Source: Streptomyces coelicoflavus | GTDB taxonomy: Bacteria; Actinomycetota; Actinomycetes; Streptomycetales; Streptomycetaceae | Length of the DNA stretch: 64,000 bases | Assembly (NCBI RefSeq): GCF_003112555.1 | Contig: NZ_BEWB01000020.1 | Coordinates: forward strand, 1 to 64,000 | Reading direction: 5' to 3' | Shown here: positions 3,270 to 24,610 of the stretch, piece after piece | How positions within the stretch are numbered: the first letter of the stretch is position 1 | Layout: every line of letters begins with the position of its first letter | Position numbers and translations under genes: made by a program | The notes under the pieces: generated by a model | The model's database searches: none | What the model was told of the DNA's origin: nothing | Seen by the model: the letters and a program-made list of their open reading frames with translations, nothing else

Positions 3270-4181
3270 TCACGCCGGTCCCGTCCTGTCCGCGAACACC
3301 CAGCGGTTGCCGGCCAGGGCGTCGTTCTCCTCGGGCAGCGGGCCGCGTCCGTGCCGGTGGGTGAAGTCGAAGGGGGTGTGGACCGACGTGGTCCAGCCCC
3401 TGCCCGTCAGACGGGCCGCGGAATCGGGCCGCGGCTCCAGGCTGAACAGGCCGAGCAGGTCGATGCCGAGTTGCCGGCGCGTGGACGTGTACAGCGGGCT
3501 GTCGCGGTACGCCGTCAGGTCCTTCTCGAGCTTGACCTCGTACGCCAGGGCGCTGCCGGGCGCACTCAGCCGGTCGACCGTGTCGATGAGCGCGGTCTCG
3601 GCGGCGCGGGGCAGGTAGAACAGCAGGCCTTCGACCAGCCACACGGTGGGGGTCGCGGGGTCGAAGCCGGCGGCCGTCAGCGCGCCGGCCCAGTCGGCTC
3701 GCAGGTCGACCCCGACCGGCACGCGCACCGCCCCGGGTTCGGCCGACAGGGCGTCGAGGACCTGGTGCTTGTACGCGAGGACTCCGTCCCTGTCGATCTC
3801 GAAGATCACGCAGTCGCAGGGCCAGTCGAGCCGGAACGCCCGCGCGTCCAGCCCGGCTCCCAGCAGCACCGCCTGACGGATGCCCGCCGCCCGGACCGAC
3901 CGGAGCAGGAAGTCGTCGAGAACCCGGGTGCGCAGCCCGAAGTAGCGGGCGAAGCGCCCCCAGAGGGGGTTCGTGTCCCCGCCCGGAGCCTGCTCCAGGC
4001 GGACCGGCCAGTGCGCGGACGCCTGGGCGCCCAGCACGAAGTGCTCCGCGTAGACGTCCTGGGCGAGGCTGTCGGGACGGTGCGTCTCGATCGCCCGCGC
4101 GGCGGCGACCAGGAGGGCCGTCAGCCCCACTCCCCCCTCCACGCCGTCCGTACCGGTGCTGAGCGGTGCCGTGTCGGCCAT
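3270..4181 (-). CDS. SAM-dependent O-methyltransferase, leucine carboxyl methyltransferase family
   Basis: This 303-residue protein has the layout of the actinobacterial TIGR00027 / LCM-type methyltransferases. The SAM-binding motif LGAGLDARAFRL lies near residue 109, an acidic strand FEIDRDGVLAYK follows, and WLVEGLLFYLP is the later conserved strand. Family members methylate carboxyl or hydroxyl groups of small molecules, but most are uncharacterised. GGAGAAGG precedes the ATG at 4181. It lies 79 bp after the alcohol dehydrogenase and is probably the last gene of the furan-type operon, where it could cap a carboxylate or hydroxyl (inference). Confidence 0.85.
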   Translation of the reverse strand: MADTAPLSTGTDGVEGGVGLTALLVAAARAIETHRPDSLAQDVYAEHFVLGAQASAHWPVRLEQAPGGDTNPLWGRFARYFGLRTRVLDDFLLRSVRAAGIRQAVLLGAGLDARAFRLDWPCDCVIFEIDRDGVLAYKHQVLDALSAEPGAVRVPVGVDLRADWAGALTAAGFDPATPTVWLVEGLLFYLPRAAETALIDTVDRLSAPGSALAYEVKLEKDLTAYRDSPLYTSTRRQLGIDLLGLFSLEPRPDSAARLTGRGWTTSVHTPFDFTHRHGRGPLPEENDALAGNRWVFADRTGPA

Positions 4182-4260
4182 GCCTTCTCCCTGGTGGGGT
4201 CGTGTGGGTCGGGCGTCCGCCGGAGGCGCCGGCCCGAACGGGCGGCGGTGCGCGGCGTGT

Positions 4261-5364
4261 TCAGTGCCGCCGGCCGTCCGGGACCAGGACGGGTTTGACG
4301 ACGCGACCCGTGTCGCAGTCGTGCTCGGCCTTGTTGATGTCGGCGAGCGGGTAGGTACGGATCAGCTGGTCGAAGGGGAAGAGCCCGGCCTGCCAGAGCG
4401 CGGTGAGCCGGGGGATCAGCAGTCCGGGGACGGCGTCGCCCTCGCAGATGTGGGAGATCGTGCGCCCGCGGTCCAGCGTTCCCGTCTCGAGCGGCAGCGT
4501 GTCGTGGAGCCGTGCCACGAGGCCGAGGCGGCCGGTCGGGCGCAGCGACCGGAGCGCGTCGTTGATCAGCGCGGCGGACCCCGTGGTGTCCAGCGCGTAC
4601 GTCACTCCTCCGCCGGTCAGCCGCCGGATGCGGTCGGCCGGGCCGGGCGGAGCGGCGAGGACCGGCAGGGCGTGGAGCCGCTCGGCGAGGGCCAGCCGCC
4701 CCGGATGCCGGTCCACGGCCACGGTCACCGCTCCGGCGGCGTGGGCGGCCATCACCGCGGCCAGGCCCACCGCGCCCGCGCCGAAGACGGCGAGGGTGTC
4801 GCCGGGGCCGACGCCGAAGGAGTTGAAGACCGCACCGGCGCCGGTGAGGAAGCCGCAGCCGAGCGGTCCGAGCAGTTCCAGGGGCAGTGCGGGATCGACC
4901 CGGACGGCGTTGCGGGCGGGGACCAGCGCGTACTCGGCGAACGAGGACTGCCCGAACCAGCGGGGGGCCAGGGCGGCCCCGGCCCCGTCGGTGAACCGTG
5001 CGGCGTGCTCCCGGCGCCCCCCGAACAGGTTCAGTGCGGCGAAGGAGTCGCAGTAGGCGGGGGCCGCGCCCAGGCAGTTGCGGCAGTGCCCGCAGGAGTC
5101 GAAGCTCAGCACCACGTGGTCGCCGACGCCCAGACCGGTGCCCGTTCCTCCCGTCTCCACCACGACTCCGGAGCCCTCGTGGCCGAGGACCGCCGGCAGG
5201 GGGGAGCGGCCCGCCGACCGCCGCACCGCGAGGTCGGTCCGGCACATCCCGCAGCCCGCGATCCGGACCAGGACCTCCCCCTCGGCCGGCCCCTCCGCCA
5301 GCACCACCTCCTCCACGGTGAACGGATCCTCGTACGCACGCAGTACCGCCGCGCCGAACCTCAC
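4261..5364 (-). CDS. Zinc-dependent alcohol dehydrogenase, aryl/benzyl-alcohol type
   Basis: A 367-residue medium-chain dehydrogenase. The catalytic zinc site is GCGMCRTD (near 37-44) with GHEGSG. The structural zinc lobe has the four cysteines of CGHCRNCLGAAPAYC. The NAD(P) fold has FGAGAVGLAAV near 195, and the C-terminal ADINKAEHD is typical of the aryl-alcohol branch. It should interconvert a ring-bound hydroxymethyl group and an aldehyde. The GTG at 5364 lies 19 bp after the aldehyde dehydrogenase stop, so the two are co-transcribed. Beside an mfnB-like gene, a hydroxymethyl- or formylfuran is a plausible substrate (inference). Confidence 0.9.
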   Translation of the reverse strand: MRFGAAVLRAYEDPFTVEEVVLAEGPAEGEVLVRIAGCGMCRTDLAVRRSAGRSPLPAVLGHEGSGVVVETGGTGTGLGVGDHVVLSFDSCGHCRNCLGAAPAYCDSFAALNLFGGRREHAARFTDGAGAALAPRWFGQSSFAEYALVPARNAVRVDPALPLELLGPLGCGFLTGAGAVFNSFGVGPGDTLAVFGAGAVGLAAVMAAHAAGAVTVAVDRHPGRLALAERLHALPVLAAPPGPADRIRRLTGGGVTYALDTTGSAALINDALRSLRPTGRLGLVARLHDTLPLETGTLDRGRTISHICEGDAVPGLLIPRLTALWQAGLFPFDQLIRTYPLADINKAEHDCDTGRVVKPVLVPDGRRH

Positions 5365-5383
5365 TTCACGCCTCCTGGGGACT

Positions 5384-6793
5384 TCACGCCTCCTGCGGGC
5401 GGTGCACGACGAACGGCCGGAGATTTCCGTAGAGCCCCCACGGTCCGCCCGCGACGCCGACCCCGCTGTCCTTGGCGCCCGCGAAGGGCTGCGCCAGGGA
5501 GAGTTCGGCGTGGTGGTTGATCCACGCCGTCCCGCACTCCAGGCGGTCGGCGACGGCCGCGGCCCGGTCGAGGTCGGTCCCCCACACCGAACCGCCCAGT
5601 CCGAAGCCGGTGTCGTTGGCCGCCCGTACGGCCTCGTCGAGACGGTCGTACGGCAGGACCGGCAGGACCGGGCCGAACTGCTCCTCGGTCACCACCGGGC
5701 TGCCGGCCGGTACGTCGGTGAGGATCGTCGGGGCGAAGAAGTACCCCGGCCGGTCCAGGCGGTGTCCACCGGCGGCGGCCCGGGCGCCGTCCGCCAGGGC
5801 CCGGGCCGTGCGGCGCTCGACCCGGGCGAGTTGCGGGGCGTTGTTGACCGGCCCGATCCGCGAGAGCGGGTCGAGCCCGGATCCGACGGCGGTCGTCCTC
5901 GCCCGGTGTGCGAGCGCCTCCACCACCCGGGCGTGGAGCCGGCGGGGGGCGTAGACGCGCTTGACCGCCATGCAGACCTGGCCGCAGTTGCGGAACGCCG
6001 CCCAGAACAGCCGGTCCGCGACCTTCTCCACGTCGACGTCGTCGAGCAGGACGGCGGCGTCGTTGCCTCCCAGTTCCAGGGTGACCCGCGCGAGCGAGGC
6101 CGCCGCGCCCGCGGCGACGGCCCGTCCGGTGGCCGTCGACCCGGTGAAGGTGACATGGCGGATCCCCGGGTGCGACGCGAGACGGGCACCGAGAGGCTCC
6201 CTCCCGGTGACGATCGTCAGGACGCCCTCGGGCAGGGCACCGGCGAGGACGGACCCCAGCATCCGGGTGGCGAGGGGTGTGAACGGCGACGGTTTGAGCA
6301 CCACCGTGTTGCCCGCCGCGAGCGCCGGCGCGAACTTCGCCGACGCCAGTTGCAGCGGGAAGTTCCACGGGACGATCGCGGCGACGGGCCCGAGCGACCG
6401 CCACCGCAGCCGGCTGTGCACGGGACGGTCGTCCGCGACGGGTTGCGTCCCGATGCGCAGCTCGGCGAAGTAGCGCAGCCGGGCGGCCGTGCGGGCCACC
6501 TCGGCGTACGACTCGGTCAGCGGCTTGCCCTGTTCACGGGTGAGGAGCGGGGCGAGAGCGGCGGCGGCCCTGTCGACGGCGTCCGCCGCCTCGCGCAGCG
6601 CCCTCCTGCGGGCGGCCTGGTCCGCCCGCCAGCCGTGCCAGGCCGTGTGGGCGCGGTCGACGATCGCGTCCAGTTCCTCCGGCCGCCGGTCGGGAGCCTC
6701 GCCGAAGGTCTCGCCGGTGGCCGGATCGACGACGGTGAAGGACCCGCCCCGGTCTGCGGGATCGTGCGCGGGGTGTCCGGTCGCCAGGGACAC
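5384..6793 (-). CDS. NAD(P)-dependent aldehyde dehydrogenase
   Basis: A 469-residue cytoplasmic enzyme of normal family length. Visible signatures are the cofactor region PWNFPLQLASAKFAPALAAG, the general base in LELGGNDAAV, the catalytic Cys in FRNCGQVCMAV, and the C-terminal NDTGFGLGGSVWGTD. It oxidises an aldehyde to a carboxylate. The GTG at 6793 starts 2 bp after the stop of the mfnB-like gene, so translation is coupled. Since MfnB makes a furan aldehyde phosphate, oxidation of that formyl group is the obvious hypothesis; succinate-semialdehyde-type activity is the alternative from sequence alone. Confidence 0.92.
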   Translation of the reverse strand: MSLATGHPAHDPADRGGSFTVVDPATGETFGEAPDRRPEELDAIVDRAHTAWHGWRADQAARRRALREAADAVDRAAAALAPLLTREQGKPLTESYAEVARTAARLRYFAELRIGTQPVADDRPVHSRLRWRSLGPVAAIVPWNFPLQLASAKFAPALAAGNTVVLKPSPFTPLATRMLGSVLAGALPEGVLTIVTGREPLGARLASHPGIRHVTFTGSTATGRAVAAGAAASLARVTLELGGNDAAVLLDDVDVEKVADRLFWAAFRNCGQVCMAVKRVYAPRRLHARVVEALAHRARTTAVGSGLDPLSRIGPVNNAPQLARVERRTARALADGARAAAGGHRLDRPGYFFAPTILTDVPAGSPVVTEEQFGPVLPVLPYDRLDEAVRAANDTGFGLGGSVWGTDLDRAAAVADRLECGTAWINHHAELSLAQPFAGAKDSGVGVAGGPWGLYGNLRPFVVHRPQEA

Positions 6794-6795
6794 GA

Positions 6796-7548
6796 TCAGC
6801 CCTGCGGGGCAGCGGCCGCGTGTTCCCGGACGTGCCGGTCCATCTCCGCCCGGAAGGCCGCCACCAGGTGCGGCCGGATCCGGCCCGCGTCGCGGTCCCC
6901 TCCCTCGCAGACCGCTCCGCGCACCCCGACGATGTCCGTCCCGATGCGGGCCAGTTCACCCAGGTCGCCGCTCCTGACGCTGCCCGCCAGCGCGGCGACG
7001 AGGCCGGCGTCGTGGGCACGGCGCACGAACTCGGCGCACACGTCGGGCGGCACGTGGTCGAACAGCCGCGTCCCGTCCTTGATCGCGGTGTCGAGCATGG
7101 CGGCGTCGGAGCCCGAACGGCGCGCGATGTCGGGCAGCGCGAGCGGGTTGACACACCCGATGCGGTGGGCGTCGGCGTACCCCGACGCGACGACGAAAGC
7201 GTCCGCCCGGTGCTCCTTCACCGCCCGCACGACCCCGCGCATGACCTCGACGGCCTGTTCGGGTGTCGCGCACCCGTAGAGACCGACCTTGATGTACGTG
7301 GCCCCGGACACGGCCGCGCCGAGCGCCGCCTGGGCCACCGTGCCGGGCTTGTACGGCACGTCCCCCACGGTGGCGGAGACCGGCTTGTCGGCCGGGACCG
7401 CCGCCCTGATCTCCCTGATGACCCACGGGTAGTTGGCCCCGAGCGAGCCCTCGTCGGGCTTCTTCACGTCGACGATGTCCAGGTGCTCGGCCGCCTTCGC
7501 GCAGTCGAGGGCCTCGTCGACACCGTCCGGAGAGATGAGAAGCAGCAA
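6796..7548 (-). CDS. mfnB: (5-formylfuran-3-yl)methyl phosphate synthase-like protein (MfnB family)
   Basis: MfnB condenses two glyceraldehyde-3-phosphates into 4-(hydroxymethyl)-2-furaldehyde phosphate, the first step to the furan of methanofuran. The 250 residues keep the family hallmarks: LLISPDG at the N-terminus, [20 protein letters not shown] with the Schiff-base Lys (Lys29 here, matching Lys27 of the archaeal enzyme), [21 protein letters not shown] and [14 protein letters not shown] chose the TTG at 7548 because it matches the family start and follows GGGGAAGGA; longer frames up to 7746 are unsupported. It is the first gene of an operon with aldehyde dehydrogenase, alcohol dehydrogenase and methyltransferase. 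The aminotransferase (MfnC) of the methanofuran route is absent. Confidence 0.85.
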
Positions 7549-7880
7549 GGTTGGGTCCTTCCCCGGCACACTCCACCTGCCCCGGAGGGGGCAGAGGTGC
7601 GGATTCGCCTGGCTCACATGCGGTCCGCACATCATTTCCCCGGGCGTCGTCCCCCGGCAGGGCGCGCGGAGTGACGAAAGGGTCGTAGCCGCGAGCGGCC
7701 CGCGCCCTGGACAACGCGCCCTCTGCGCTGGATCCCGCGCGCGCAATGGCGCCGTCGACCTACGATCCGCCGCTCTCGGCCGGGTGAACCTCTGTACGAA
7801 CTCCGTTTCCCCGTTGTATGACTTCTCCCTATGTGATGGCGGAGGCGTTCACCTCGGAGCGCTTGCTTCGATTGCCGCTT
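7549..7880. other. Divergent promoter region between the furan operon and the GH92 gene
   Basis: No gene is evident. Within the minus-strand leader of mfnB a hairpin can form from CACCTGCCCC (7574-7583) and GGGGCAG-A-GGTG (7588-7599, one bulge), 26-51 nt before the start. It could act on translation or readthrough. The rest should carry both divergent promoters, but I cannot pick hexamers with confidence. Confidence 0.4.
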
Positions 7881-7892
7881 GACAACGTTGTC
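7881..7892 (+). promoter_or_regulatory. LacI-type palindromic operator GACAACGTTGTC
   Basis: This perfect 12-bp palindrome with a central CG is typical of LacI-family sugar repressors. It lies 16 bp upstream of the GTG start of the secreted mannosidase and overlaps a TTGACA (7879-7884). A repressor here would block the promoter or the ribosome site region. Its position also argues that translation starts downstream, not at 7818. The regulator gene is not in the window. Confidence 0.55.
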
Positions 7893-7907
7893 CTACCGGA
7901 AGGGTCC

Positions 7908-10900
7908 GTGCTCGTCATGCCCGACAGATCCAAGAGACCGCCGATACGGCAGGCGATACGGCCGACGAGATCCCGGGCCCTGCGGTCCACGGTCGCCGCG
8001 GTGCTCGCCGGGGCGCTCGGCCTCGCCGCGCTGACGGGCGGCGGCACCGCCGTGGCCGTGCCCGGCCCGACCGCGTCCACCGCCGAGGGGACCTCCCGCG
8101 GCACCGACTACACGGAGCTCGTCGACCCGTTCGTGTCCACCGCCGGCGACGACGGCAACGACCTCCCCGGCGCCCAGGCCCCGCACGGACTCGCCAAGGT
8201 CAACCCCATGACCACCCCGGGCCGCAACCACTCCGGGTACGACTACGACGAGGACCGCATCGCCGGGTTCACCGCCACCAACCTGGACGGCGTGGGCGGT
8301 TCGGGCGGCGGCGGCGACCTGCTGGTCGTCCCGACGTCGGAGCGCTACGACAGCCGCCCGGCCACGAGCAGCTACGCGCACCCCTACAGCCACGACGACG
8401 AGTCGGCGTCGCCCGGCTCCTACCGGGTGGGCCTCGGGTCCCCCGCCGGGACCATCGACGCCGAGATGACCGCGACGACCCGCACCGCGCTCGAGCGGTA
8501 CCGCTTCCCCGCCGGATCGCGGCCCCAGCTCGTCCTCGACCTGGCGAACAACTTCACCAGCCGCACCCGCGCGACGCTCGACGCGACGAAGCTGAAGGAC
8601 GGGACGACCGCGATCAGCGGACTCGTCGCGGGGTCCTTCAACGGCGCCTCGTACCGCCTGTACTACTACGCCACCACGAACGTCCCCGTGACCTCGCTGC
8701 GCAGTTGGGGCGACGACGGCGCGCTCAGCGAGGCGACCGCGCAGGACGGTACCGACACGGGCGCCGTGCTCGGCTTCGACGAGGCCGACGGCGACGACAT
8801 CGAGCTGCGCGTCACCCTCTCGCCGATCAGCGCCGAACAGGCCGCGACCGACCAGCACAACGAGGTGGCGGGCCACGGCTTCGAGGAGGTGCGCGCGCGG
8901 ACGAAGGCGGACTGGAACGGCACGCTCGGCGCCGTCGCGGTGAAGGCCTCGAAGAAGGCCGACCCGGACTCGACGCTCACCAAGCAGTTCTACACGCACC
9001 TGTACCGCATGTACGCGCTGCCCGTGAACGCGACCAGTACCAGCGGCACCTACCGCGGCGTCGACGGGGCGGTGCACCAGGCGAACGGCTTCACCTACTA
9101 CGACGGCTGGTCCACCTGGGACGACTTCCGCAAGTACTCCGTCGAGGCGTACATCGACCCGGCGGCCTACCGGGACATGGTGCAGTCCGCGATCGTCCTC
9201 TTCGCCGACGCGCACGCCTCGGGCAAGAGCCTCGGCAGCCTCACCCACTCGGTGCCGACGGTGCGCTGGGAGCGCTCGGCGGTGGTGATCGCCGACGCGC
9301 TGTCGAAGGGGTTCAAGGACTTCGACCGGCTCGACGAGGCCTACCCGGCGCTGAAGTCGTACACCGGGTACTACACCGGGACGCAGCTGCGGCAGGGCTA
9401 CATCGCCGGTGACCCCGGTACGACGGTGCAGCGCGGCTACGACCAGTGGGCGCTGTCCGTCGTCGCGGACGCGCTCGGCGAGGACGCGGACGCGAAGAAG
9501 CTGCGCGAGCAGGCGACGATGGCGATCGACAACCTGGTCAGGCCCGGCGCCTGGACGGCGGACGACGGCACCGAGGTGGGTCTGCTCACCCCGCGCGACG
9601 GCGAGGGCGACTGGCAGGACGTCGACTACGAGAAGTTCGAGGAGGCCAGGCTCTACCAGGGCACCCTCTGGCAGTACCACTGGTACGACGCGTACGACAT
9701 GGCCGGCCTGGTCGAGGCCATGGGCGGCGAGAAGGCCGGCCGGGCCGCGATCCGGCACATGTTCGGCGAGGACTCCGACGCCGACGACGGCTCGACGATG
9801 CTGCACTCCAACGCCAACGAGATCGACCTCCAGGCCCCCTACCTCTTCAACTACGTCGGTGAGCCGAGCCTGACGCAGAAGTGGGTGCGCGCCATCTACA
9901 CGGACGAGACCTGGAACCGGTACATCGCCACCGGCTCCACCGGTGAAGCTCCCAGCTCCGGCGGCGAGTTCAGGCCGCCGGTCAGGACCAAGGCGTACGA
10001 ACTCGCCCCGGACGGCTTCCTGCCCACCATGGACAACGACGCGGGCACCATGTCGACGATGTTCGTCGCGGCCGCCCTCGGCCTGTTCCCGGTGACGGCG
10101 GGCTCCAGCCAGTTCCAGATCGGCAGCCCGTTCTTCGACTCCACGACGATCCGTTACGCCAACGGCGCCGAGTTCACCGTCGAGGCCGACGGGGTCTCGC
10201 CGAGCGACTACTACGTGCAGCGCGCCACGCTCAACGGCAAGCGGTTCACCAACACGTGGCTCGACTACGCGCAGATCGTCGCCGGCGGCACCCTGAAGTT
10301 CGACATGGGCTCCGAGCCGTCGTCCTGGGGCGCCCGCACCGAGCCCGCGTACTCGCTGAGCACCGACCCGGGCGACGGCGACGACGGCACCGGGCCGGGC
10401 CGGGGCACGACGGTCGTCTCCGCCCGTCCGCAGACCGTCGGCACCGACGCCGACGGCACCCTCGACACCGGTATCGGGCTCCGCCTGTCCGGCAGGGCGT
10501 CGTTCGCCGCGCGGAAGGGGACCAGCCTCACCGGGACCGGCGCGGCGAGCGTCACCGGCCTGCCCGACGGGGTCGAGGCCGATCTCCGCGTCACGGGCAG
10601 GCGCACGGCGTCGCTGAAGCTCACCGGCACCACGAAGACCGACGCGCGGATCGGCGTCGTCTTCCGCGACCGGGCCTTCCCGCACGGCATACCGGCCTCG
10701 ACGGTGACCGGCGCCGGCGTGTCCGTGACCGACCCGCTGGTCGTCTCGGCGGCGGCGGTGCACCGGGCGGGCCTCGACGCCCTCGTCGACGACGCGTCCC
10801 TCGTGCGTGAGGGCAACTACTCCGACGGCTCCTACGGCCTCTTCCGGGCGGCGCTGGAACGCGCGGTGACCGTCCTCGCGGACCGCGCCTCGCCGACCGG

Positions 10901-13900
10901 CACGCTCATGGCCGCGCACGACGCCCTGCGGTCCGCGATCGACGCGCTCACCCTGGACGAGGGCGGGTACGCCGTCCTCCAGGCCGAGGATCCCGACCGG
11001 ATGGAGGGCCCCAGCCTCGTCAAGGAGGCGTACTACTCGGACGGCGACCTCGGCGGCGTCACCGAGGGCGCCTGGGAGCAGTACACGCACCTGGACTTCG
11101 GCGGGGTCGCCCCGCGGAGCGTCTCCGTGCGCTACGCCAACTCACAGGCCCCCACGGCGGAACCGAGCAGTGTGGACATCCATGCCGGCGACGCCGACGG
11201 CCCCGTCGTCGCCACCGTCTCCCTGCCCGGCACCGGCGGCTGGCAGTACTACACCACCGTCGAGGCGGCCGTCACCGACCCGCAGGCCCTGCTGGACGCG
11301 TCGGCCGCGACGTTCGTGTTCCACGCGCCGTCGGGGCGGCAGTGGGTGTCGAACTTCGACTGGTACCGGTTCTCGCCCGAAGACGTCTCCGCGTCCGGCT
11401 CGAAGACGACACTGGCCTCGCTGACCACGGCCAACGCCTCGGCCACCGGCGACGGTTCACTGCCGCTGAAACTCTCGGGCGGCGTCTTCGAGAACGTGAC
11501 GAACGGCGCCTGGGCCGAGTGGCGGGACACCGACCTCGGTGACGGCGCGGACGCCGTCACCATCGGCTACGACAAGCCCCGCTCGCGTGCGGCGTCGGAC
11601 TCGCACATCGAACTGCGCCTCGGTTCGAAGGACGGTCCGACGAGCGTCGACATCCCCCTGGAGTACACCGGTTCCGGCTGGGGGACCGTCGCCGAGACCA
11701 CCGTGCCGCTCGACCCGCGTGTCTTCAAGGGTGCGCAGACCGTGTACGCCCTCTTCGTCTCCAGCACCCAGACCGACGCACAGCCCTACGTCGCCAACGT
11801 CCACTCGCTGACCCTGACCCGGCAGTCGGACGCCCCGGTGGTGTTCGACGCCACGGCGTTCGAGGGCAGCAGCGGGGGCGGGCTCAAGAGCGAGCCGGCC
11901 ACCTGGAGCGACGCGGGTTCCGCCACCAGCCTCGGCGGCACCTACGACGGCGCCTGGCTCGACTACGGGGACGTCGACTTCGGCGACTCCCCCAAGAACA
12001 CCGTCACGCTCACCTACGTCAACAACTCCGCCCGCTGCGGCACCGGTTCCGCCGTCCAGCTCTACCTGGACACCTTCGACCCGGACGCCCCCGGCACGCC
12101 GTACGCGACCGTTCCGCTGCCGGTCACCGGCGGTTCGTGGTCGTCGGGCGGGACGACCAGCGTGACCCTGCCGGAGGCGATCACCGGCACACACGCGGTG
12201 CACCTGCGGCTGACCACGCACGCGGACTCCGCGCACCCGTACGTCGCCAACCTCGGCCGGGTCACCTTCGGCCACGTCGAGCCGCCCGCGGAGACGGACC
12301 TGTCCGCCCTGCGGAAGGCCGTCGGCCAGTACGAGGGTCTGGCCGAGGACGCCGACCGGTACGGCACCGTCGACTTCGGCGTGTTCCGGCGCGAACTCGC
12401 CGCCGCCCGCGCCCTCCTCGGCGCGAAGGACGCGACGCAGCTCGAGGCCGACCTGCGGACCCGGAGCCTGACCCTGGCCGCGAACCAGCTGGTCCCGCTC
12501 CCGAGACTGAAGCTGGAGAACCTGGTCGCCACCGCGTCCGCCCTCCGCGACGAGCGCTACACGGACGCCTCGTGGACGGCGTTCACCACCGCGCTCACCG
12601 CGGCGAGGAAGGCCGTGGCGGACGACGCGGCCACGGACCGGACGCTCACCGCGCGGTACGACGGCCTCGACGACGCCATGTCGGCGCTCACCACGAAGCG
12701 CAGGACGGTGCCGGCCGCGCCCGACGCGGTGTCGGCGTCCGCGTCCGGCACCGGCGTGAAGGTCACCTGGTCCGCGCCCGAGGACGACGGCGGTTCGCCG
12801 GTCACCGGCTACGAGATCACGCTCGGCGACGGTCACCAGGTCGAGATCTCCGACCCGGACAGCCGGAGCACGGTGTTCACCCGGCTGAAGGACGGCACGT
12901 CGTACCCGGCGCGGGTCCGGGCGGTGAACGCCCTCGGCGACTCCCCCTGGAGCGCTTCGACGCAACCCGCCGTCACGGGCGACAACCGGCCCCAGGCGCC
13001 GGCCGTCACGGGCGTGGTCACCGACGGCAAGCGGGTCCGGGTGAGCTGGCGGCCGGCCAGTGACGGCGGTTTCCCGGTCGTCGGCTACACGGTGACCCTC
13101 GACGACGGAACGACCGCGCACGTGCCCGGCACCTCGGACACCGCGCTGCTCACGACCGCGGACAGGGCCGAGGGCCACTCCGCCACCGTGACCGCGACGA
13201 CCCTGGCGGGTGCCTCCGACGCCCCCGCCACGACGGCCGCGAGCACGGCCGCCGCCACGACCGGCACCGCCTCCGACCCGGCGGACTACGAACCGTCCCC
13301 CTTCCCGGACGACGTGCTGGACGCCTCCTACGCGTCGGACTCGTGGCCCGCGACCGACGACGGGAGCGACTACTTCAACGGGCTCCTCAGCGGCTTCGAG
13401 GACCTCGGCCCCGCCACCCTCGGCGCCAACGAGAAGCTGTCCGAGGGCACTTCGCCCACCGCGGAGAACGACACGATCACCGTCGGCATCAACAACGCGG
13501 CGACGCGGGCGCAGGTCGACCGGGCCGAGGTGGACGCCTCGAACAGCGCCACCGTCACGATGGCCGACGGCCTCGGCTCCCGGCTCGGCCCGCTGTACAC
13601 CGAAGCACTGAAGGAGGGCCGGCTGCCCAAGACCGGTGCGCTGTTCTCCCGCGTCACCGAGAACCTCGACACGCACGACGCGGCGAAGAACCACTACCAG
13701 TACCTGCGCCCGTACGTGCGGCTCGGCTTCGCCGGGGACGGCGGCGCGGTCTACGAGTCGCCGGACAGCTCGTACAGCGGACTCGCGGGGCAGGGCTCGT
13801 ACCCGAGCGGCCACACCTACGGCGGCTACGAGGCCGGGACGATCCTCGCCACGCTGCTGCCGGAGCTGGCGCCGTCGATCCTCGCGCGCACCTCGGAGTA

Positions 13901-14834
13901 CGGGGACAACCGGGTCGTCCTCGGGTTCCACTACCCGCTGGACGTCATGGGCGGCCGCGTCACCGCCCAGGCCACGGTGGCGCACCGCTGGGCGGACCCC
14001 GGTTTCGAGAAGCTGCTGCGGCAGGCCCACACCGAGATCGAGAACGTGCTGCTCGCGCGGTGCGAGGAGGAGGGCTACGGCGACACCCTGACGGCCTGCG
14101 CGGGCGACCCCTACGCCGGGCTGAGCACGGCCCAGCAGATCGATCAGTACACCCGGCGCCTGACCTACGGGTTCTCCCGGACCGGCAAGGCCGGGCAGAC
14201 CCTCGACGCGCCACCGGACGCGGCGGCGCTGCTGGTCACGGCGTTCCCGGACCTGACCGCCGAGCAGCGCACCCAGGTTCTGGAGCAGACCGCCACGGAC
14301 TCCGGGTACCCGCTCGACCTCACCGCGTCCGGCGGGCCGAGCTGGCAGCGGATCAACCTCGCGGCGGCGATGGCGGCGGACGTGGTCGTGAACGCCGACG
14401 GGTCGGTCACGGTGACCAGCTCCCCCGACGCCACGAAGGCGAGCATCGCCGACGCGTCCGCGATCACCGTGGGGGGCGTCGCGCTCGACGGGTTCGACCC
14501 GGAGGTGTCCACGTACGTCGTGGACTGGCCGAAGTACAAGCGGATCCCGGCCGTCGGTGCCGTGACGGCCGCTTCGGGTGCGCGGGTGAAGGTGACGTCC
14601 GGCAGCTCCACGGTCTCGTCGTCCCGGCGCGGGTTCACGACCCGCACCATCACGGTGACCTCGGCCAACGGCGCGTTCACCCGCGCCTACACGGTCGGCT
14701 TCCGGCCTACGACGGAGCGGCATCCGCACCGGCCGGGCGCGCGCTGGGACACCGGCGGCGGGACGGCCGGTGACGGCGGGGGCGGGGGCGGCCTGTGGTC
14801 TCCGGCACGCGAATGGGAACAGACCTCGAGATGA
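7908..14834 (+). CDS. Secreted multidomain GH92 glycosidase fused to PAP2 acid phosphatase
   Basis: About 2,308 residues. A signal peptide ends near TGGGTAVA. The GH92 domain spans roughly residues 70-800. At the general-acid position it has YQGTLWQYHW, with Gln584 instead of the usual Glu, while the two catalytic Asp are kept (Asp709 and Asp711 in PTMDNDAGTMS). Next come a FIVAR repeat (~958-1015), three sugar-binding-like beta modules (~1020-1457), two FIVAR-like repeats (~1463-1597) and two FN3 domains (~1600-1780). A PAP2 phosphatase (~1800-2090) has all three motifs: K1927-x6-R1934-P, PSGH with His1969, and R2002-x5-H2008-x3-D2012. A beta-sandwich (~2180-2265) ends it. From memory, GH92 enzymes with Gln at the acid position uncap mannose-phospho-mannose. 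The start is GTG 7908 (GGAAGG close by) or ATG 7917; 7818 is rejected. Confidence 0.9.
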   Translation: MLVMPDRSKRPPIRQAIRPTRSRALRSTVAAVLAGALGLAALTGGGTAVAVPGPTASTAEGTSRGTDYTELVDPFVSTAGDDGNDLPGAQAPHGLAKVNPMTTPGRNHSGYDYDEDRIAGFTATNLDGVGGSGGGGDLLVVPTSERYDSRPATSSYAHPYSHDDESASPGSYRVGLGSPAGTIDAEMTATTRTALERYRFPAGSRPQLVLDLANNFTSRTRATLDATKLKDGTTAISGLVAGSFNGASYRLYYYATTNVPVTSLRSWGDDGALSEATAQDGTDTGAVLGFDEADGDDIELRVTLSPISAEQAATDQHNEVAGHGFEEVRARTKADWNGTLGAVAVKASKKADPDSTLTKQFYTHLYRMYALPVNATSTSGTYRGVDGAVHQANGFTYYDGWSTWDDFRKYSVEAYIDPAAYRDMVQSAIVLFADAHASGKSLGSLTHSVPTVRWERSAVVIADALSKGFKDFDRLDEAYPALKSYTGYYTGTQLRQGYIAGDPGTTVQRGYDQWALSVVADALGEDADAKKLREQATMAIDNLVRPGAWTADDGTEVGLLTPRDGEGDWQDVDYEKFEEARLYQGTLWQYHWYDAYDMAGLVEAMGGEKAGRAAIRHMFGEDSDADDGSTMLHSNANEIDLQAPYLFNYVGEPSLTQKWVRAIYTDETWNRYIATGSTGEAPSSGGEFRPPVRTKAYELAPDGFLPTMDNDAGTMSTMFVAAALGLFPVTAGSSQFQIGSPFFDSTTIRYANGAEFTVEADGVSPSDYYVQRATLNGKRFTNTWLDYAQIVAGGTLKFDMGSEPSSWGARTEPAYSLSTDPGDGDDGTGPGRGTTVVSARPQTVGTDADGTLDTGIGLRLSGRASFAARKGTSLTGTGAASVTGLPDGVEADLRVTGRRTASLKLTGTTKTDARIGVVFRDRAFPHGIPASTVTGAGVSVTDPLVVSAAAVHRAGLDALVDDASLVREGNYSDGSYGLFRAALERAVTVLADRASPTGTLMAAHDALRSAIDALTLDEGGYAVLQAEDPDRMEGPSLVKEAYYSDGDLGGVTEGAWEQYTHLDFGGVAPRSVSVRYANSQAPTAEPSSVDIHAGDADGPVVATVSLPGTGGWQYYTTVEAAVTDPQALLDASAATFVFHAPSGRQWVSNFDWYRFSPEDVSASGSKTTLASLTTANASATGDGSLPLKLSGGVFENVTNGAWAEWRDTDLGDGADAVTIGYDKPRSRAASDSHIELRLGSKDGPTSVDIPLEYTGSGWGTVAETTVPLDPRVFKGAQTVYALFVSSTQTDAQPYVANVHSLTLTRQSDAPVVFDATAFEGSSGGGLKSEPATWSDAGSATSLGGTYDGAWLDYGDVDFGDSPKNTVTLTYVNNSARCGTGSAVQLYLDTFDPDAPGTPYATVPLPVTGGSWSSGGTTSVTLPEAITGTHAVHLRLTTHADSAHPYVANLGRVTFGHVEPPAETDLSALRKAVGQYEGLAEDADRYGTVDFGVFRRELAAARALLGAKDATQLEADLRTRSLTLAANQLVPLPRLKLENLVATASALRDERYTDASWTAFTTALTAARKAVADDAATDRTLTARYDGLDDAMSALTTKRRTVPAAPDAVSASASGTGVKVTWSAPEDDGGSPVTGYEITLGDGHQVEISDPDSRSTVFTRLKDGTSYPARVRAVNALGDSPWSASTQPAVTGDNRPQAPAVTGVVTDGKRVRVSWRPASDGGFPVVGYTVTLDDGTTAHVPGTSDTALLTTADRAEGHSATVTATTLAGASDAPATTAASTAAATTGTASDPADYEPSPFPDDVLDASYASDSWPATDDGSDYFNGLLSGFEDLGPATLGANEKLSEGTSPTAENDTITVGINNAATRAQVDRAEVDASNSATVTMADGLGSRLGPLYTEALKEGRLPKTGALFSRVTENLDTHDAAKNHYQYLRPYVRLGFAGDGGAVYESPDSSYSGLAGQGSYPSGHTYGGYEAGTILATLLPELAPSILARTSEYGDNRVVLGFHYPLDVMGGRVTAQATVAHRWADPGFEKLLRQAHTEIENVLLARCEEEGYGDTLTACAGDPYAGLSTAQQIDQYTRRLTYGFSRTGKAGQTLDAPPDAAALLVTAFPDLTAEQRTQVLEQTATDSGYPLDLTASGGPSWQRINLAAAMAADVVVNADGSVTVTSSPDATKASIADASAITVGGVALDGFDPEVSTYVVDWPKYKRIPAVGAVTAASGARVKVTSGSSTVSSSRRGFTTRTITVTSANGAFTRAYTVGFRPTTERHPHRPGARWDTGGGTAGDGGGGGGLWSPAREWEQTSR

Positions 14835-23882: not shown

Positions 23883-24610
23883 GGGATGCCTCCGGAGCGA
23901 GCCGGATCCGCTCCGGCCGCCTCGGCACCGGGCCGGGTGGCGGGCAGCAGCATCAGGGCCAGGTAGAGGATCAGGGACGTGCCCAGACCCACCGCCCAGC
24001 CGTAGTCGGCCAGCGGTTCGAGGAACGGTACGGGGCGGCCGTCGACCAGCGGGTGGAAGTCCGCGCCGCCGATGGCCAGGACGCCGCCGACGGCGAACGC
24101 GAGGACCGCACGCCAGTTCCAGCCTCCGCCGTACCAGTAGCGGCCGCCCCGGCAGTACAGGTCGACGAGGTGCAGCCGGGCGCGGCGCAGGATCCAGTAG
24201 TCGGCGATGAGGATTCCGGCCACCGTGCCGAGCAGCCCGCCGACCAGGCCGAGCCAGGTGAAGATGTAGCCCTGCGGGTCGGAGTACAGCTTCCACGGGA
24301 AGATCAGTACGGCGAGGACGGACGTGATGAGCGCGCCCGCCCGGAAACTGACCTTGCGCGGCGCGACGTTGGAGAAGTCGAAGGCCGGGGAGACCAGGTT
24401 GGCGGCGATGTTGACGGACAGGGTCGCCACCAGCACGGTCACCAGGGCGAAGAGCAGACCGACCACGTTGTCGGTCTTCGCGGCGAGCTGGACCGGGTCC
24501 CAGATCGGTTCGCCGTAGACGGCCTGCGAGCCGGAGGTGACCATCACGGAGAGGAAGGCGAAGAGCGTCATCGTCGTCGGCAGGCCGAACGCTGATGAAA
24601 GCCTCCCCAA
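23879..24610 (-). pseudogene. NCS1 (cytosine/uracil/allantoin-type) permease, C-terminal half, cut by prophage
   Basis: The visible ~240 residues match the second half of NCS1 nucleobase permeases: FGLPTTMTLFAFLSVMVTSG, GEPIWDPV, SVNIAANLVSPAFDFSN, PRKVSFRAG, FPWKLYSDPQGYIFTWLGL, ILIADYWILRRARL, YWYGGGWN. Full members have about 480-500 residues and 12 helices; here the first ~250 residues are missing. The reading frame runs straight into phage DNA near 24600-24612, so the other half should lie past the right end of the prophage. The ATG-like start at 24610 is fortuitous. The fragment is probably not translated into a useful product. Confidence 0.85.

Follow-up and report, generated by a model that had tools for sequence, protein, structure and literature searches.

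A CcMan5-like GH92 glycosidase joined to an acid-phosphatase-like PAP2 module in one Streptomyces gene: a probable two-step enzyme for alpha-mannosyl phosphodiesters

The DNA analysed here, a 64,000-nucleotide window of Streptomyces coelicoflavus (contig NZ_BEWB01000020.1, positions 1 to 64,000), carries on its forward strand a gene that joins a GH92 glycosidase with Gln at the acid position to a PAP2 phosphatase module. The protein appears to be secreted and is probably a two-step scavenging enzyme for alpha-mannosyl phosphodiesters, which would uncap a mannosyl phosphate and then free the phosphate. We describe the sequence, architecture, conservation, gene linkage and shared operator of the fusion, and from these we infer both activities, their order and the substrate, most likely fungal phosphomannan. 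The host genome comprises 8.7 Mb in 41 contigs, and the closest named relatives of the gene are from Streptomyces. The joining of a Gln-type GH92 to PAP2 in one protein had been proposed in an initial annotation; it is borne out by a single unbroken open reading frame (ORF) in the window and by the same fusion in 45 of 77 related loci.

The ORF spans 7818..14834 on the forward strand, 2338 codons with no internal stop, and contains three in-frame start candidates: ATG 7818, GTG 7908 (the start taken in the initial annotation) and ATG 7917. Since a conserved promoter element covers ATG 7818 and an operator follows it, ATG 7917 (or 7908) is probably the likelier translation start. Residue numbers below follow the full ORF, counted from ATG 7818, and the initial annotation counted from 7908. 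Counted its way, YQGTLW starts at 583 and D-N-D occupies 709-711, so that its Gln584, Asp709 and Asp711 are correct and correspond to Q614, D739 and D741. The GH92 N-terminal domain, the GH92 catalytic domain, three CBM6 stretches, fibronectin type III (fn3) and PAP2 each score above their own Pfam cut-off. The coding features are as follows.

7917..14834, forward: coding sequence of the GH92-CBM6-fn3-PAP2 fusion from the probable start ATG 7917 (ORF reading)
7917..8099, forward: signal-peptide-like N-terminus with a basic stretch, a hydrophobic stretch and an Ala-rich end (read off the sequence)
8118..8822, forward: GH92 N-terminal domain PF17678, residues 101-335 (Pfam)
8838..10313, forward: GH92 catalytic domain PF07971, CcMan5-like, from residue 341, in two pieces, 8838-9902 and 9987-10313 (Pfam, PDB match)
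9657..9659, forward: codon of Q614, the general-acid position, Glu in ordinary GH92 (alignment)
10032..10040, forward: D739-N740-D741, catalytic Asp motif (alignment)
10980..12407, forward: three CBM6/CBM35-type modules, from residue 1055, end approximate (Pfam)
12510..12689, forward: FIVAR-like segment, under the Pfam cut-off (Pfam)
12717..13211, forward: linker of two fn3 repeats, the limits of the second taken from an overlapping Ig-type match (Pfam)
13293..14117, forward: PAP2 module, with Pfam PAP2 at 13674-13982, residues 1953-2055 (Pfam, motifs, model)

The nearest solved relative of the GH92 half is CcMan5 of Cellulosimicrobium cellulans, reportedly described by Tiels et al. in 2012. 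The half scores 287 bits against PF07971, 181.8 bits against PF17678 and 289.1 against TIGR01180 (cut-off 249.55), and in a phmmer search of the PDB the CcMan5 entries 2xsg and 4aq0 are the top matches, at 1100 bits across the whole GH92 domain. The stretches QGTLWQYHW and MDNDAGTMST are identical between the two proteins. In the alignment to 6f8z, Q614 stands opposite a Glu of the ordinary GH92 enzyme BT3130, as the initial annotation had supposed, so that the Glu acid of the family is replaced by Gln here. Glu is named as the catalytic acid of BT3130, BT3965 and BT3990 (PMC5930347), and the motif match, rather than residue numbering, suggests that the aligned Glu is that residue. The GH92 half can be read as an exception inside its family because CcMan5, which is called a GH92 member and targets Man-alpha-1,6-PO4-Man linkages (PMC5930347), shows the same exception; a C. 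cellulans alpha-mannosidase has also been used for uncapping mannose-1-phosphate-6-mannose (PMC9246025). The activity that the initial annotation stated for a Cellulosimicrobium enzyme of this type is thus on record.

The phylogeny places the two together. In a quick maximum-likelihood tree (LG+G4, 94 rows, with L065 and L080 excluded for broken or truncated frames), the 80 rows with Gln (QGT.WQ) form one side of a branch with a Shimodaira-Hasegawa-like approximate likelihood ratio (SH-aLRT) support of 100, and the 14 other GH92 rows lie apart; fine placements are unsure because of long-branch warnings. The Gln side includes C. cellulans locus L049, which, judged by its 1659 bits and few differences against 2xsg, is the CcMan5 orthologue; the GH92 domain of the fusion is 67% identical to it. 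Q614, D739 and D741 are invariant over 44 full-length fusions, the window included (L022, L065 and L069 are excluded from this count for broken or truncated frames). For a phosphate leaving group, which would need no acid catalyst, Gln may suffice. An ordinary GH92 enzyme with its acid changed to Gln nevertheless retains some mannosidase activity, seen as residual activity on mannobiose (PMC10167667), and this would suit a reading in which the GH92 half is an ordinary, slow alpha-mannosidase tolerating Gln and PAP2 is an unrelated passenger. We regard that reading as very improbable, given that neither the clade nor any of the 44 full-length fusions shows another residue in place of Gln, that the clade includes the orthologue of CcMan5, whose activity is published, and that the catalytic residues of PAP2 are conserved.

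Gln at the aligned acid position is also found in a second GH92 group (QGT/QGS-x-ATY; L093, L103, L106, L116, L127, L128 and L129; 815-875 aa), which falls outside the CcMan5-like clade for the two rows included in the tree, L093 and L103. In L091, L101, L110, L111 and L136 the aligned acid column holds Thr (TETNGW), and these are probably another subfamily or have a misaligned acid. Compostimonas suwonensis (L063:3864-15679) carries two tandem Gln-type GH92 genes, both without PAP2.

The PAP2 half carries the catalytic motifs of class A acid phosphatases. The signature of that class is KX6RP, PSGH and SRX5HX3D, with Ser usual before the Arg. All three motifs that the initial annotation had listed are present with the usual spacing, as K1957-x6-RP, P1996SGH and R2032-x5-H2038-x3-D2042, except that Asn replaces the Ser ahead of the last motif; Asn stands there in 49 of the 49 rows having a residue at this position, and Ser is seen in the aligned PDB chains. 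Specifically, R1964, P1965, S1997, H1999, R2032, H2038 and D2042 are invariant over the 44 full-length fusions, while K1957 and G1998 deviate in one row only (L017).

An AlphaFold2 model of the module has a predicted local distance difference test (pLDDT) value of 83.2 and a predicted template-modelling (TM) score of 0.84, the best of five models (the others 50.9-70.7). Foldseek returns 29 matches at E <= 0.001, all of them class A-type acid phosphatases, including the Escherichia blattae, PhoC, PhoN and Shigella enzymes, with TM-scores of 0.59-0.69 by target length and 0.49-0.57 by query length. The structure prediction that the initial annotation had called for therefore models the PAP2 module as class A acid-phosphatase-like, and the sequence profile matches agree. 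The PhoC equivalog NF045654 gives 64.9 bits and does not reach its cut-off of 430, so the module is PhoC-like rather than PhoC.

We then consider the linkage of the two halves across genomes. A GH92-domain scan of 84,980 species genomes, taking the best 80 of 82 confirmed stretches, yields 77 loci, each with QGT.WQ in one frame. PAP2 lies within the same ORF as the Gln-type GH92 in 45 of them (among these, L022 is cut by a contig end, and L033 and L065 carry GH92 in two frames). Because these loci come from other genome records, the fusion is genuine; they rule out a chance fusion and also an assembly join, which the initial annotation had named, together with a frameshift, as what might undo its reading, and the frame itself is unbroken. 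Four more loci encode this PAP2 subtype in a gene of its own next to GH92, placed 9 and 81 bp downstream in the Cellulosimicrobium loci L041 and L044, 669 bp upstream in Bifidobacterium psychraerophilum (L081), and convergent with GH92, 169 bp apart, in Luteimicrobium (L074), all measured between stop-to-stop frames. This neighbour state needs three changes on the GH92 tree, in three separate lineages. Bifidobacterium jacchi (L069:3-7437) shows the order opposite to the Streptomyces fusion, with PAP2 first, then the start of GH92 in one frame and the rest in another.

By comparison, the PAP2 profile finds nothing in 52 control GH92 loci of the same class (stretches of 6.3 to 20 kb, in which other phosphatase families were not searched). 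All 52 enter this count; the GH92 frame exceeds the 150-bit cut in 35, and the acid is unread in the other 17. Phosphatase linkage as a general trait of GH92 is thereby rejected for this PAP2 subtype. The subtype occurs in 8 of 394 genomes of the class, with at most 6 candidates scored per genome, and GH92 in 99. Among 23 searched genomes with an unfused Gln-type GH92, three hold the subtype elsewhere: C. cellulans, C. composti and Micrococcales KH10. The neighbours of unfused Gln-type GH92 genes (81 proteins at 16 loci, 13 of the 94 listed proteins being left out) include at least two with metallophosphatase domains among the families listed (25 of 74).

Upstream of the fusion gene lies an operator shared with other sugar genes.

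7880..7892, forward: LacI-type palindromic operator TGACAACGTTGTC, core 7881-7892 (genome-wide exact match)

Exactly three copies of TGACAACGTTGTC exist in the genome. One precedes the fusion gene, the second separates a sugar solute-binding protein gene from a second GH92 gene, whose N-terminal stretch is long, and the third lies between a LacI-family regulator gene and a ROK sugar kinase gene; genes for GH92, an importer, a regulator and a kinase share the operator. Control of the fusion gene most likely falls to the LacI-family repressor of an alpha-mannoside regulon, with repressor binding and inducer presumed.

The 12-base core occurs at the 5′ end of the GH92 frame in 33/45 fused loci and 20/52 control GH92 loci, which makes it a mark of GH92 genes generally rather than of the fusion in particular. 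A sharper contrast, with the exact core no more than 500 bp from the GH92 domain in 33/44 fused rows versus 4/56 control rows, was set aside: it misleads, since in many control proteins a long stretch precedes that domain; the 500-bp count excludes rows with fewer than 300 upstream bases (L022 of the 45 fused, 2 of 38 unfused and some controls). Among unfused Gln rows, the exact core is found in 3 of 35, the window's own stretch L003 being excluded. Furthermore, the core precedes two stand-alone PAP2 genes whose surrounding stretches give no GH92 match: it begins 37 bp ahead of the annotated start of L207, on a plasmid of Streptomyces sp. NBC_01324, and about 86 bp ahead of the first start codon of L082, from the same genus as the window. 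These genes tie the PAP2 subtype itself to the mannoside regulon. The core was not found in the stand-alone PAP2 loci of other families (L083-L086) or in the Cellulosimicrobium copies L210 and L211. A further copy of the core, with one mismatch (GACCACGTTGTC), lies at 24461-24472 of the window.

The operator and the linkage bear on a different account of the PAP2 half, as a secreted acid phosphatase of general use that simply shares a protein with a Man-P-Man hydrolase and acts, uncoupled from it, on any sugar phosphate or nucleotide. The nearest relatives of the module are non-specific class A acid phosphatases, enzymes of this type are broad in substrate, and stand-alone members of the subtype exist. 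The subtype is uncommon, yet it is fused or adjacent to Gln-type GH92 in four lineages and absent from the 52 control loci, and the mannoside operator precedes each of the two stand-alone Streptomycetaceae copies examined; we therefore consider this account unlikely.

A second conserved element lies further upstream.

7794..7826, forward: promoter element of three tandem 11-bp units GTACGAACTCC/GTTTCCCCGTT/GTATGACTTCT, not a canonical PHO box (conservation)

The 33-bp array is nearly invariant in close Streptomyces orthologues, and the genome holds one further, weak match to it (C5:73446-73469). Control of the fusion gene by a PHO box, that is, tandem 11-bp repeats near GTTCACC, had been suggested by an initial scan and is rejected by the GTTCACC tandem score. 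Clear PHO boxes were seen at the six pstS loci inspected, out of 30 fetched, that of the same genome included; PhoD loci could not serve for training, since the GTTCGCC they carry is part of an inverted repeat. Among the Gln-clade rows, duplicates included, 18 of 82 score above z 2.5, as do 4 of 43 controls, and strong GTTCACC-like arrays precede some relatives (L044, L048, L055, L057, L058 and L077 among them). Membership of the fusion gene in the Pho regulon is unsupported, since the window shows no canonical PHO box and controls also pass the threshold.

Under the two-step explanation, the gene would be induced via the LacI protein, the protein would be secreted, and the CBM6 modules would hold it on polysaccharide. 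The Gln-type GH92 would hydrolyse the terminal Man-alpha-1-P-6-Man bond, with water attacking C1 with the help of Asp and the phosphomonoester departing without an acid catalyst, which would release mannose and leave mannose-6-phosphate exposed on the glycan. The class A acid-phosphatase-like PAP2 module may then strip this phosphate via a phosphohistidine intermediate. The LacI-family repressor would co-control the fusion, the second GH92, the sugar-binding protein of the importer and the ROK sugar kinase, and the product sugar would be taken up and processed by the co-regulated importer and kinase. The idea that uncapping is followed by dephosphorylation, put forward in the initial annotation, gains independent support from the separate neighbouring genes and the shared operator.

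Several observations weigh against this explanation. Gln alone is no proof of phosphodiester specificity, because of the mannosidase activity kept by the Gln variant (PMC10167667). The PAP2 fold match is moderate, with the TM-scores by query length given above and root-mean-square deviations of 4.0-9.7, and the module, as a relative of non-specific acid phosphatases, may have no preference for mannose-6-phosphate. The pair is not obligatory, since the fetched flanks of the remaining 27 of 77 Gln loci hold no PAP2 and the subtype was not found anywhere in 20 of the 23 searched genomes with an unfused Gln-type GH92; in C. cellulans the two genes are unlinked. Fusions from Micromonosporaceae and Microbacteriaceae lack the operator or have a degenerate form of it, as do the stand-alone PAP2 loci of other families. 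For the PHO box, the window's best score is 13.0 versus 12.7 +- 0.8 for shuffles and is equalled in 15 of 40. Finally, no match to a GH76 endo-mannanase was found in the genome (GH125, GH38 and GH47 were not searched), so use of whole mannan is not implied. The initial annotation's wider claim, that one enzyme would give access to yeast-type phosphorylated mannans, accordingly goes too far: both activities would act on chain ends, GH76 gives no match, and the 20 genomes do without the PAP2 subtype.

The missing GH76 backbone enzyme of fungal alpha-mannan would also fit a non-fungal natural substrate, either a bacterial or other polymer with alpha-mannosyl-1-phosphate diesters, of which the poly(glycosyl 1-phosphate) of actinobacterial walls is an example, or a small molecule such as alpha-mannose-1-phosphate or a sugar nucleotide; the chemistry should suit any good phosphate leaving group. 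We hold such a substrate to be improbable, since the CBM6 modules suggest polysaccharide binding, the regulon holds another GH92 beside a sugar-binding protein, and the characterised relative acts on yeast-type Man-P-Man glycans (PMC5930347, PMC9246025). A further, rather doubtful possibility is that the fusion is an alternating exo-depolymerase, in which GH92 removes the terminal mannose at its C1-phosphate, PAP2 removes the 6-phosphate, and the cycle repeats at each C1-phosphate-linked unit. If so, a single tethered protein would shorten poly(Man-1-P-6) chains from their ends, yeast exophosphomannans and actinobacterial poly(glycosyl phosphates) being examples of such chains. The cell would gain carbon and phosphorus at once, with regulation by a sugar operator, joined in some lineages (Cellulosimicrobium) by a PHO-box-like array.

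Each half belongs to a known kind of enzyme, and we recognised no description of a GH92-PAP2 fusion among the literature matches listed; one relative, WP_326844251.1, is named at NCBI merely 'glycoside hydrolase domain-containing protein'. The closest known system, CcMan5 (2xsg/4aq0), shares the GH92 clade and Gln at the acid position, and its orthologue at L049 has CBM6 modules downstream. It differs in that the L049 protein shows no PAP2 domain, this subtype of PAP2 being encoded by a separate gene elsewhere in that genome, and in that the operator core at L049 is inexact, with 2 mismatches. The class A non-specific acid phosphatases (E. blattae 1d2t/1eoi/1iw8, PhoC and PhoN) resemble the PAP2 module in model fold and in the three catalytic motifs, but their matched PDB chains have 217-274 residues, whereas here the module is the C-terminal part of a protein of about 2300 residues. 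The ordinary GH92 alpha-mannosidases (BT3130, BT3990 and Neobacillus NnGH92) share the two-domain GH92 fold and the Asp motif, but use Glu as acid (PMC5930347, PMC10167667), and none of the 52 control GH92 loci has a PAP2 module. ShAM1 of Streptomyces hygroscopicus is likewise a secreted Streptomyces GH92, but it is a 113.7-kDa alpha-mannosidase assayed on pNP-alpha-mannose, and the excerpted text of PMC10269736 mentions no phosphatase domain.

A C. cellulans mannosidase of this kind serves to make mannose-6-phosphate glycans for lysosomal enzyme therapy, and the excerpted text of PMC9246025 states no natural role for such enzymes. The joining of an uncapping enzyme to one that would use up its product suggests a natural purpose, the harvest of mannose and phosphate from phosphomannan. 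The fusion opens the role of Gln-type GH92 enzymes to direct testing, offers a one-protein tool for uncapping and dephosphorylating glycans, and its PAP2 half may serve as a genome marker of this activity.

In the window, the genes adjoining the fusion (3270-7746, reverse strand) encode a 4-HFC-P synthase (MfnB-like), an aldehyde dehydrogenase, a zinc alcohol dehydrogenase and an LCM-type methyltransferase, with no obvious tie to mannan. In Streptomyces sp. NBC_01558 (L208:3709-10596), the fusion sits on a 678-kb linear plasmid, beside an IS200/IS605-TnpB pair.

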